Shown piece by piece: positions 21,478 to 46,452 of a stretch of DNA of 64,000 bases. Under the pieces are notes generated by a model. The model ran no database searches. It saw only the letters and a program-made list of their open reading frames with translations, and was not told the origin of the DNA. Within the stretch, counting starts at the first letter, position 1, and every line of letters begins with the position of its first letter. The position numbers and the translations under genes were made by a program. The stretch is from Polynucleobacter sp. MWH-Braz-FAM2G (GTDB lineage: Bacteria > Pseudomonadota > Gammaproteobacteria > Burkholderiales > Burkholderiaceae), in the NCBI RefSeq assembly GCF_018687635.1, contig NZ_CP061300.1, positions 1,323,424 to 1,387,423 of the forward strand, in the 5' to 3' direction.

Positions 21478-21554
21478 TGGGGCGAACGACGGGGCTCGAA
21501 CCCGCGACAACCAGAATCACAATCTGGGACTCTACCAACTGAGCTACGTCCGCC
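21478..21554 (-). tRNA. tRNA-His (anticodon GTG)
   Basis: The minus strand folds as a full cloverleaf. The anticodon stem-loop is CCAGA-TTGTGAT-TCTGG with anticodon GTG. The D-arm contains GCTCAGTTGGTAGAG and the T-arm GCGGGTTCGAGCCCCGT. The extra 5' G (position -1) that pairs with C73 and is unique to histidine tRNA is encoded, and CCA is encoded at the 3' end (through base 21478). The acceptor stem has one G-T pair. It has its own promoter and terminator, so it is a single-gene unit. Confidence 0.96.
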
Positions 21555-44336: not shown

Positions 44337-45818
44337 TCATGAAGTAAACCAATGTTCGCGCGCTTTCATGATGAGCGTTTTCGCAGTTTCTTCGTCAATT
44401 TGTGTCGCCTCAACCAGCTCATCAACAGCCAATTCAGCAAGGTCGTCACGGGTATGAACTTGATTGTCAGCAAGCTTAGCAATCAGTTCCGTTGTCATTC
44501 CCTCTAATGAGCGCAAGTCTTGTGAGACTTCACCAATACGCTCTTCTTTAGCTAACTCCATAGTCAACAAAGAATCACGCGCACGAGTACGCAATTCATT
44601 TACAGTATCTTCATCGAAAGAGTCAATTTCCAACATTTCAGACAATGGAACATAAGCCACTTCTTCTAACGTATTGAAACCTTCTTCAATCAAGATATCC
44701 GCCACCTCTTGATCGACATCCAACTTGTCCATAAACAACTGGCGTACAGAGGATGCTTCTTTTTCTGTTTTCTCAGCGGACTCTTCAGGAGTCATGATGT
44801 TGATCTGCCAACCAGTCAAATCACTAGCCAAACGAACGTTCTGTCCGCTGCGGCCGATGGCGATAGCAAGGTTTTCTTCATCAACAACCACGTCCATTGC
44901 ATGACGCTCTTCATCAACCACGATTGAAGAAACTTGCGCTGGTGCCAAAGCTCCAATCACAAACTGAGCAGGATCTTCAGACCACAATACGATATCGACA
45001 GCTTCGCCTGCTACTTCATTGCGCACAGCAGTAACACGTGTTCCGCGAACACCTACGCAAGTACCAATTGGGTCAATGCGCTTGTCATAAGTAATCACGG
45101 CAATTTTTGCGCGGATACCAGGATCACGAGCGGCGCCTTTAATCTCTAACAAGCCTTGCTCCATTTCTGGAACTTCGTTCTCAAACAGCTTGATCAAAAA
45201 TTCCGGGCAAGTACGTGAGAGTTCAATTTGAGGGCCGCGAGCTTCACGATCTACCTTAAGGATATAAGCGCGCACGCGATCACCAGAACGTAGGTTCTCT
45301 TTTGGAATCATTTGGTCTCGACGGAGCAATGCTTCCACGCGACCTGATTCAATAATGAGTCCATTCTTGTCAGCACGCTTAACAGTACCAGTCATGACTT
45401 TTTCGCCACGCTCTAGGTAGTCATTCAAAATCTGTTCACGCTCAGCATCACGAATGCGTTGCAAGATCACCTGCTTAGCAGCTTGTGCGCCAATACGACC
45501 AAAAGCCAAAGACTCGATCTGCTCTTCGATGTATTCACCAACTTCCATATCAGGAAATTGTTCTTGGGCTTCGAATTGCAAAATCTCTTTATCAGGCTCT
45601 TGCAATCCAGCTTCGTTAGGAACGACCAACCAGCGGCGGAAGGTTTCATATTCACCAGTTTCGCGATCAATCGAAACTCGAATGTCCACGTCTTCTGTTG
45701 CGTAGCGTTTTTTGGTTGCAGAGGCCAACGCCATCTCCAACGCTTCAAACACAATTGCTTGATCTACGTTCTTTTCACGCGCTAGGGCGTCTGCCAACAT
45801 GAGAACTTCTCGGCTCAT
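44337..45818 (-). CDS. nusA: Transcription termination/antitermination factor NusA
   Basis: 493 residues. N-terminal RNA-polymerase-binding region ([18 protein letters not shown]), S1 domain around 135-200 ([16 protein letters not shown]), KH1/KH2 ([19 protein letters not shown] [31 protein letters not shown]), and C-terminal acidic repeats typical of proteobacterial NusA. It binds nascent RNA and pauses the polymerase, and is known in E. coli to feed back on its own operon. Its start overlaps the rimP stop by ATGA. Confidence 0.97.
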
Positions 45819-46306
45819 GACTTTCTTCCTTTGAAATCAATAACAGGGACCAACCGAGTCTTATCGACCTCGGCTAAAGAGAACTCCAATTGAGAAGGCT
45901 GACCATCAGCACCCTCAAATACCAAACCAAATTTTGCATCTGGTGAATTCAATTCACCGCTCAGCAAACCTTGTAACTCACCACGAAAATTTTTACGATT
46001 GCCAACTGCAACACGCAATTTCAAATCCACTTGCATGCCAGTAAAGCGCACATAGTCCGCAGCACTTTTAACAGGACGATCCAAACCTGGAGATGAAATC
46101 TCTAAACGCTCATAAGGAATGTTTTCAACCGGCAAGGTATAACTCAATTGGTGACTTACCTTTTCACAGTCCAAAACAGTAATTAAGCGTTCGTAATCTG
46201 GGTTTTCAATCGTGACGCGCAGCAAACCTCTGGCTTCACGCTCAATATCCACTAGCGTGTAGCCTAAGTTTTCCACCTCTGCAGAAATAACCTGCTGATC
46301 CTTCAC
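45815..46306 (-). CDS. rimP: Ribosome maturation factor RimP
   Basis: 163 residues. Motifs [37 protein letters not shown] and GRKS at the end belong to RimP, needed for 30S assembly. The start is GTG at 46306 with a strong AAGGGG ribosome site; just upstream is a three-codon ATG frame (ATG AAG GGG TGA) that ends one base before the GTG, so reinitiation could affect its level. It is the first gene of the rimP-nusA-infB-rbfA-truB-typA operon. Confidence 0.95.
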
Positions 46307-46330
46307 GTCACCCCTTCATACCAAAACGGC

Positions 46331-46356
46331 AAAAAAAAATGGGCTTCAAAGCCCAT
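46331..46356 (-). terminator. Intrinsic terminator just before rimP
   Basis: Minus strand stem ATGGGCT, loop TTGA, AGCCCAT (46356-46339) followed by an unbroken T-run. It stands 25 bases upstream of the rimP start, so it must either be read through, or the rimP operon needs a condition that opens it. It also ends any rluB transcript. Confidence 0.85.
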
Positions 46357-46440
46357 ATTCTCGAAATTCAGAACAGGCCGACTTACGTTGATCGCAACAT
46401 CAGTCGGTAACAACACTTCACAGCAGAAGCCCGCTGTAAG
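46331..46440 (-). ncRNA. Structured leader/attenuator of the rimP-nusA-infB operon (candidate)
   Basis: Between the -10 box and rimP the minus strand folds into three hairpins: a 5-pair stem (ACAGC/GCTGT, 46437-46420) with GGGCTT in its loop, a long hairpin CCGACT...AGTCGG with an inner GTTG-CGAT-CAAC (46407-46378), and a terminator stem followed by eight or nine T. The GGGCTT loop of the first hairpin is complementary to the AAGCCC arm of the terminator, so an alternative fold could block termination. It is either an attenuating 5' leader or a free small RNA of about 110 bases. Attenuation ahead of rimP/nusA with NusA feedback is known in E. coli. Confidence 0.6.
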
Positions 46441-46446
46441 ACCGAA

Positions 46447-46452
46447 ATTATA
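46447..46452 (-). promoter_or_regulatory. Consensus -10 box of the rimP leader
   Basis: Minus strand TATAAT directly preceded by GGC, which resembles an extended -10. No good -35 hexamer lies at 16-18 bases. Transcription would begin near base 46440, right before the first leader hairpin and 40 bases after the rluB stop. Confidence 0.55.

Follow-up and report, generated by a model that had tools for sequence, protein, structure and literature searches.

The leader described here lies on the minus strand of a 64,000-nucleotide stretch of DNA (the window) from Polynucleobacter sp. MWH-Braz-FAM2G, the genome of which is a single contig of 2,172,647 bases. Along that strand, the open reading frame list and Pfam matches give an rluB-like gene, a gap of 173 bases, and then rimP, nusA and infB, an operon that couples transcription control to ribosome building. 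The names are supported by Pfam domains (a pseudouridine synthase with an S4 domain for the rluB-like gene, RimP, NusA and IF2), and we take the reading frames beyond infB to be rbfA, truB and typA. The gap contains, in order, a TATAAT box, hairpin 1, hairpin 2, hairpin 3 and a terminator, after which 24 bases lead to the rimP GTG at 46306:

46447..46452, minus strand: TATAAT, the −10 box of the presumed rimP promoter (mean identity 1.0 in 80 aligned leaders)
46418..46439, minus strand: hairpin 1 (−11.0 kcal/mol; stable in the source genome, sequence not conserved)
46378..46407, minus strand: hairpin 2, CCGACU-G-AUGUUG-CGAU-CAACGU-A-AGUCGG (genus-specific, nearly invariant, one copy in the genome)
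46356..46375, minus strand: hairpin 3, UGUUCU...AGAAUA, abutting the terminator (99.6% of cells paired, 40 distinct sequences)
46353..46377, minus strand: extended hairpin 3, CCUGUUCU / AGAAUA-U-GG (predicted fold; 8 pairs hold in 97.8% of the cells of alignment A2)
46339..46356, minus strand: intrinsic terminator hairpin AUGGGCUUUGAAGCCCAU, of the general rimP-leader type GGGc..gCCC (terminator scan, pattern, literature)
46331..46338, minus strand: terminator U-tract (identity 1.00 at each position)
45815..46306, minus strand: rimP, the first gene of the operon (Pfam RimP_N and reading frame)
44337..45818, minus strand: nusA, presumed source of the feedback signal (Pfam NusA_N, S1 and KH_5, and reading frame)

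The RNA downstream of the TATAAT box folds at −39.5 kcal/mol (z −4.2), with none of 200 shuffles as stable; folded alone, the block 46407-46330 gave a z of −4.16 and the 31-nt piece 46407-46377, which holds hairpin 2, gave −13.8 kcal/mol (z −4.1). An earlier note, made from the sequence, had placed a TATAAT directly after rluB and a terminator with a T-run close to the rimP GTG, and both are borne out: the box lies 27 bases past the rluB stop with a column identity of 1.0 in 80 leaders, and the terminator occupies 46356-46339 with its T-run reaching 46331, 24 bases before the GTG. The three hairpins of that note are present as well, but the predicted fold has four, because a small extra hairpin (46375-46356) stands between hairpin 2 and the terminator. 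A consensus scan found no −35/−10 pair in the leader; the −10 alone is strong, and transcription presumably starts near 46440.

Conservation and folding of the leader within the genus

We aligned the leaders of 80 sequences, namely the window and 79 named loci (L138, the contig of which starts 27 bases before rimP, was omitted). The 77-nt block 46407-46331, which comprises hairpin 2, the small hairpin 3 and the terminator, had a mean identity to the window of 0.972, as against 0.642 at 64 fourfold sites of rimP counted on nearly the same loci (two of the 80 were too short). Columns at an identity of at least 0.97 made up 81% of the block and 14% of the fourfold sites (9/64). On either side of the block the values dropped, to 0.739 between the block and the GTG and to 0.639 in the hairpin 1 region, 46446-46411. 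This identity profile indicates that the two other hairpins and the terminator are kept nearly unchanged, whereas hairpin 1, judged by its sequence, drifts at about the neutral rate.

Alignment of relatives was the test that the earlier note had set for its own reading; hairpin 2 and the terminator pass it, whereas hairpin 1, a proposed switch and a proposed small reading frame fail. In that switch the GGGCTT loop of hairpin 1 would pair with the AAGCCC arm of the terminator. The complementarity is present in the window, but a functional, conserved switch finds no support: GGGCTT occurs in the hairpin 1 region of 1 of the 80 leaders, the pairing has a probability of 0.00024, and the fold in which it is forced is 5 kcal/mol worse. 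Likewise, the three-codon frame ATG AAG GGG TGA exists at 46319-46308, but as a second level of control it is unsupported, being found in 1 of the 80 aligned leaders. The same frame was seen in L042, which lies outside the 80; in this complete genome (G051) hairpin 2 is weakened by several changes, and hairpin 3 and the terminator look intact, so that it presents a naturally damaged form of the element.

A wider set of 165 loci, many of which are the same assembly under two records and hence not independent, was reduced to 40 distinct forms of the block (alignment A2). The pairs of the named structure hold in 97.8% of its cells. Both sides of hairpin 2 pairs 3-28 and 4-27 are changed in 19 cells, a figure reached in 0 of 500 shuffles and in none of the slid controls; because the forms are related, these shuffle counts are optimistic. 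Only 2 of the 12 pairs of hairpin 2 covary, a count matched in 239 of 500 shuffles, and the number of further pair types is unremarkable (418 of 500). As the inner stem is nearly invariant, structure there is argued for by folding energy and by one diverged locus, L243, in which, by eye, the pair atop the inner stem is flipped and a G-C replaces an A-U at the base of the terminator. Across the 40 forms the loop of hairpin 2 varies (CGAU, CGUU, ACAU, AAUA, AGUG, UGUU, AGUU and others), and GUUG/CAAC and G22-U23-A24 are nearly fixed, a pattern which suggests that what is recognized is the stem with its non-canonical step, and not the loop.

Two G of the 5′ arm of the terminator can also be drawn into hairpin 3, which in its extended form is predicted to compete with that arm before the 3′ arm has been transcribed. 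When the terminator 3′ arm was left out, the extended hairpin 3 was predicted, in this or a shifted register, in all 26 distinct forms of alignment A1; in most of them CC pairs with the two G over a one-base bulge, the exceptions being L045 and L046, with a shifted register, and L134, with a moved bulge. At full length, hairpin 3 was missing from the lowest-energy fold of 4 of the 26 forms (L043, L115, L125 and L135), where a longer terminator stem that uses the U-tract replaces it. The extended hairpin 3 (−5.4 kcal/mol) is weaker than the terminator (−9.4 kcal/mol), and so could delay but not by itself prevent termination. In A2 its pair 33-57 is broken in 6 rows, and none of its pairs shows a double-sided change, so that sequence conservation could also explain the pairs. 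As far as the modelled folds go, the competing fold kept across relatives is that of CCUGUUCU with AGAAUA(U)GG and not the switch of the earlier note.

The distance between the −10 box and hairpin 2 was measured in the 165 loci, one of which had no box in the stretch read. From the end of the box to the first base of hairpin 2 there are 37-43 bases in 126 of 164 loci and only 10-17 in 21; those short-spacing loci that are present in our NusA tree fall into two separate clades. Transcription usually starts 6-8 bases after a −10 box, which in the short-spacing loci would put hairpin 2 at or very near the 5′ end of the RNA, where it probably begins the transcript. In these loci there is no room for hairpin 1, and the minimal leader consists of hairpin 2, hairpin 3 and the terminator.

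The terminator as a member of the general rimP-leader family

To the 100 betaproteobacterial loci, hand-picked to cover genera and families among the rimP matches of the order (five genomes in one search set and three in another had no rimP match), we applied a strict terminator pattern of GGGC, 2-14 bases, GCCC and T5. It was found 5′ of rimP in 92 of the 100 loci, as compared with 0 of 500 dinucleotide shuffles and 5 of 100 loci on the opposite strand. A looser pattern raised the count to 97, and L176, one of the three loci missed by both patterns, has a GGGC..GCCC hairpin by eye. The terminator is real and of a known kind, the rimP-leader attenuator of Naville and Gautheret (2010; PMC2965389), who described a GGGc..gCCC terminator ahead of rimP and hypothesized NusA as its regulator; in that paper it is called the most ubiquitous transcription attenuator. 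The leader of the window has in common with that family its placement before rimP–nusA–infB, the GGGc..gCCC stem with a U-stretch, and NusA as the suspected regulator, and its distance of 24 bases to the gene falls within the 4-130 nt given there. It differs in that the paper reports, descriptively, no larger conserved element, whereas the present leader has, ahead of its terminator, the genus-specific hairpin 2 and a small hairpin that competes with it. The earlier note had proposed an attenuator leader or a small RNA. Its first alternative stands, since a promoter followed by a terminator before rimP–nusA–infB is this recognized family (PMC2965389); the second, a separate small RNA that acts in trans, we do not favour, given that the 5′ region lacks conservation and that few of the conserved bases are left unpaired.

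Work on other bacteria points the same way in part. Transcripts of the Streptococcus agalactiae rimP operon ended 31 nt past their start and NusA feedback was proposed (PMC4448216), and work on E. coli describes both terminators before rimP and regulation by NusA (PMC6511841). E. coli rimP fusions were decreased in a Rho mutant (PMC7815308), an effect that the attenuator model proposed below does not explain. The E. coli metY–rimP–nusA–infB operon differs from the present one in having the tRNA gene metY before rimP, where the window has none (its sole tRNA is at 21481-21553), and further promoters and RNase III sites are described for E. coli. With a metabolite riboswitch in mind as well, Rfam was scanned, and no family matched the leader region at its cut-off; weak matches to sX14 and two snoRNAs were far below it and were set aside. 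RF01770, the rimP leader of Gammaproteobacteria, shares the gene and has similar terminator letters, but the window leader scores 18.1 bits against a gathering score of 47 and is not a member. RF02420 (Bp1_162, a Burkholderia ‘sRNA’) covers the rimP leader of Burkholderia-like genomes, but its model lies on the strand opposite the leader and the window scores 24 bits against 50. Among 20 loci scanned, seven (L151, L159, L164, L152, L144, L147 and L154) carry RF02420 above its cut-off, on the strand opposite the rimP leader. It is reported as a Burkholderia sRNA candidate with RT-PCR support (PMC3521395); the family may have been built on the wrong strand of the rimP leader, or it may represent an RNA antisense to that leader.

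Of the 97 order loci in which a terminator was found, 49 also have a TATAAT-like box (at least 5 of 6 letters) within 60 bases upstream of the GGGC, at a median distance of 22 bases and at 12-34 bases in 36 of the 49. The next two 60-base stretches upstream, taken as controls, contained a box in 35 of 96 and 17 of 94 cases, an approximately threefold excess over the furthest; the nearer control is probably raised because many Burkholderiaceae leaders are longer, and only 4 of 28 Burkholderiaceae loci have the box within 60 bases. By eye, several Burkholderiaceae leaders have their own, different hairpins before the terminator. In the 36 of 97 leaders with a box 12-34 bases before the terminator, mostly L166-L237, termination would yield an RNA of only about 30-50 nt. 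If these presumed starts are used, there is little space for an antiterminator or a leader peptide, as would fit an elongation factor that acts directly.

Distribution of hairpin 2

Two covariance models were used, one of the whole block (R1), which matches its 26 building forms by construction, and one of hairpin 2 only (R2). Of 186 genus genomes, 159 matched R1 at E ≤4.3e-13, each at one place among the matches listed, and seven had a second, weaker match (E 0.1 or better). Counting G053, where it has diverged, hairpin 2 is present in at least 160 of the 186. Besides G053, the remaining 27 genomes comprise 15 that have rimP and the terminator without hairpin 2 and 11 without a RimP match, ten of the latter being assemblies of 73-84% completeness. 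The exception is G037 (99% complete, one contig), where neither RimP (at E 0.001) nor the leader (at E 0.1) was matched, and in which rimP may be lost or strongly diverged. By a text pattern the element was found in 165 of 183 loci; the other 18 are the 15 without hairpin 2, L138, and L025 and L323, which belong to one genome (G034) and carry the element by R1.

In 160 genomes of the order, R1 scored at most 33.1 bits outside the genus, as against 102-105 for three genus members; several weak matches just 5′ of rimP most likely reflect the shared terminator. R2 matched 42 of 299 genomes sampled from the family, all in one of 25 genera; the remaining 24 genera yielded no match at E 0.01. Among the 100 order loci its scores did not exceed 11.8 bits, and the 15 genus loci that lack hairpin 2 gave no match even at E 5. 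In the NusA tree, 14 of these 15 genomes (L246 was omitted) form one clade (support 100/99) nested among carriers of hairpin 2, with moderate support (89/81) for the grouping of this clade with the core. The tree suggests that hairpin 2 had one origin followed by one loss or replacement. Because the 15 genomes keep the terminator, hairpin 2 is not needed for the basic mechanism. Among these 15 loci (L244-L259 except L254), several were seen to have another, AT-rich hairpin against the terminator, in the place of hairpin 3, and hairpin 2 may have been replaced there rather than simply lost.

Within the source genome, R2 (at E 10) and the leader DNA each found hairpin 2 at one place. A looser search for further copies (up to 3 mismatches) gave 276 places against 264 in a reversed control and was discarded, and the viral contigs had no exact match to the hairpin 2 core. 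Mimicry of ribosomal RNA was rejected, as hairpin 2 matches only 7-8 bases in the 7.2-kb rrn stretch of the genome and R2 found nothing there. So was boxA-like antitermination: the best match has 4 mismatches in 10 and is equalled by 80% of shuffles; against the genome’s own spacer boxA the leader has 3 mismatches by eye. A literature search of titles and abstracts found no such hairpin described in Polynucleobacter, and the main text of a survey of structured RNAs in 26 genomes including Polynucleobacter (PMC8632094) does not contain rimP, nusA or rluB.

Mechanism and alternatives

We consider it reasonably likely that the leader is a promoter-proximal rimP-leader attenuator in which NusA raises termination and a protein bound to hairpin 2 sets the odds of the terminator. 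RNA polymerase would start near 46440, transcribe a leader of about 110 nt, and either stop at the GGGC..GCCC terminator (end near 46331) or read on into rimP–nusA–infB. At the paused complex NusA, the product of the second gene, would most likely raise termination, giving negative feedback on the operon, a step taken from the literature on the family. Hairpin 2 would form early, in Polynucleobacter as an extra, sequence-specific RNA domain; hairpin 3 would tie up two G of the terminator arm for as long as the terminator is unfinished, and the terminator would then win by branch migration unless the polymerase moves on. Hairpin 2 would most likely be bound by a protein, be it NusA, RNA polymerase or another operon product, that shifts the odds of the terminator; here we infer both the binder and the sign of its effect.

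That the terminator simply ends rluB transcription with a fixed readthrough, and that the hairpins merely stabilize the RNA, with hairpin 2 as a 5′ cap against decay, we regard as unlikely. A scan found no other full T-run terminator between rluB and rimP, but the TATAAT that stands between rluB and this one does not vary, and control is the better fit for a promoter placed in front of a conserved terminator. Hairpin 2 is stable enough for a cap (−13.8 kcal/mol) and in 21 of 165 loci, starting 10-17 bases past the −10 box, stands where a stabilizer would; a stabilizer needs stability and not sequence, however, and yet the inner stem and G22 U23 A24 are nearly invariant while the loop is variable. 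It is also improbable that the leader serves chiefly to supply a small RNA of about 110 nt that termination releases and that acts in trans. Its anatomy with a U-tract resembles that of small RNAs, and the enterobacterial rimP leader is listed among ProQ-associated, attenuator-derived RNAs (PMC5391140); against this, no unpaired stretch that could act as a seed is conserved (identity is at the neutral level across 46446-46411, and the loop sequences of hairpins 2 and 3 differ among loci), and the element is 5′ of rimP at every neighbourhood inspected and present in a single copy in the genome.

Control by ribosomes is similarly doubtful. Hairpin 2 conceals a five-codon frame, AUG UUG CGA UCA ACG UAA (MLRST), and a ribosome there might govern the terminator: an AUG, four codons and an in-frame stop persist in 156 of 165 loci despite changes in the loop, and in another clade, without the AUG, CGA is replaced by the synonymous CGU. 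The frame has no Shine–Dalgarno sequence, however, its median duplex energy being −1.7 as compared with −12.7 for rimP, and the −3.7 of the window is equalled by 69% of shuffles. The AUG is replaced by AAG (8) or UUG (1) in nine of the 165 loci, the 3-nt loop of L243 breaks the frame, and at some loci only some 10-20 nt of RNA would precede the AUG. Moreover, G22 is invariant in the 40 forms, although a synonymous change of ACG to ACA would pair better with U9. Neither this frame nor the three-codon frame provides the conserved leader ORF with a ribosome site that marks a ribosome-mediated attenuator. The switch in which GGGCTT pairs with AAGCCC has next to no chance of being right: beyond its complementarity in the window, it meets its rarity among the 80 leaders, its negligible pairing probability, the energy cost of forcing it, and the loci where hairpin 1 has no room.

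Returning to the attenuator governed by NusA and hairpin 2, what is new is the conserved hairpin 2 domain in the genus, the terminator itself being already known. The sequence comparisons suggest that the genus tunes rimP–nusA–infB in its own way via hairpin 2. The put element of phage HK022 is a cis-acting antitermination RNA, a 5′-proximal conserved structure ahead of a terminator. Hairpin 2 resembles it in being such a structure and differs in being one hairpin, with a putative effect. A bolder and, in our estimate, rather unlikely idea is that hairpin 2 is a genus-specific signal, the first structure to leave the polymerase, to which NusA, RimP or polymerase binds so that the balance between the terminator and the extended hairpin 3 is reset, possibly as a put-like antitermination RNA in a free-living bacterium. 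If that were true, a plain NusA feedback terminator would become a tuned sensor of how much ribosome and transcription capacity the cell has. Natural variants exist within the genus, in which the same terminator stands with hairpin 2, with a diverged hairpin 2, or with none; their comparison would separate the universal mechanism from the add-on and could show what reads the leader.
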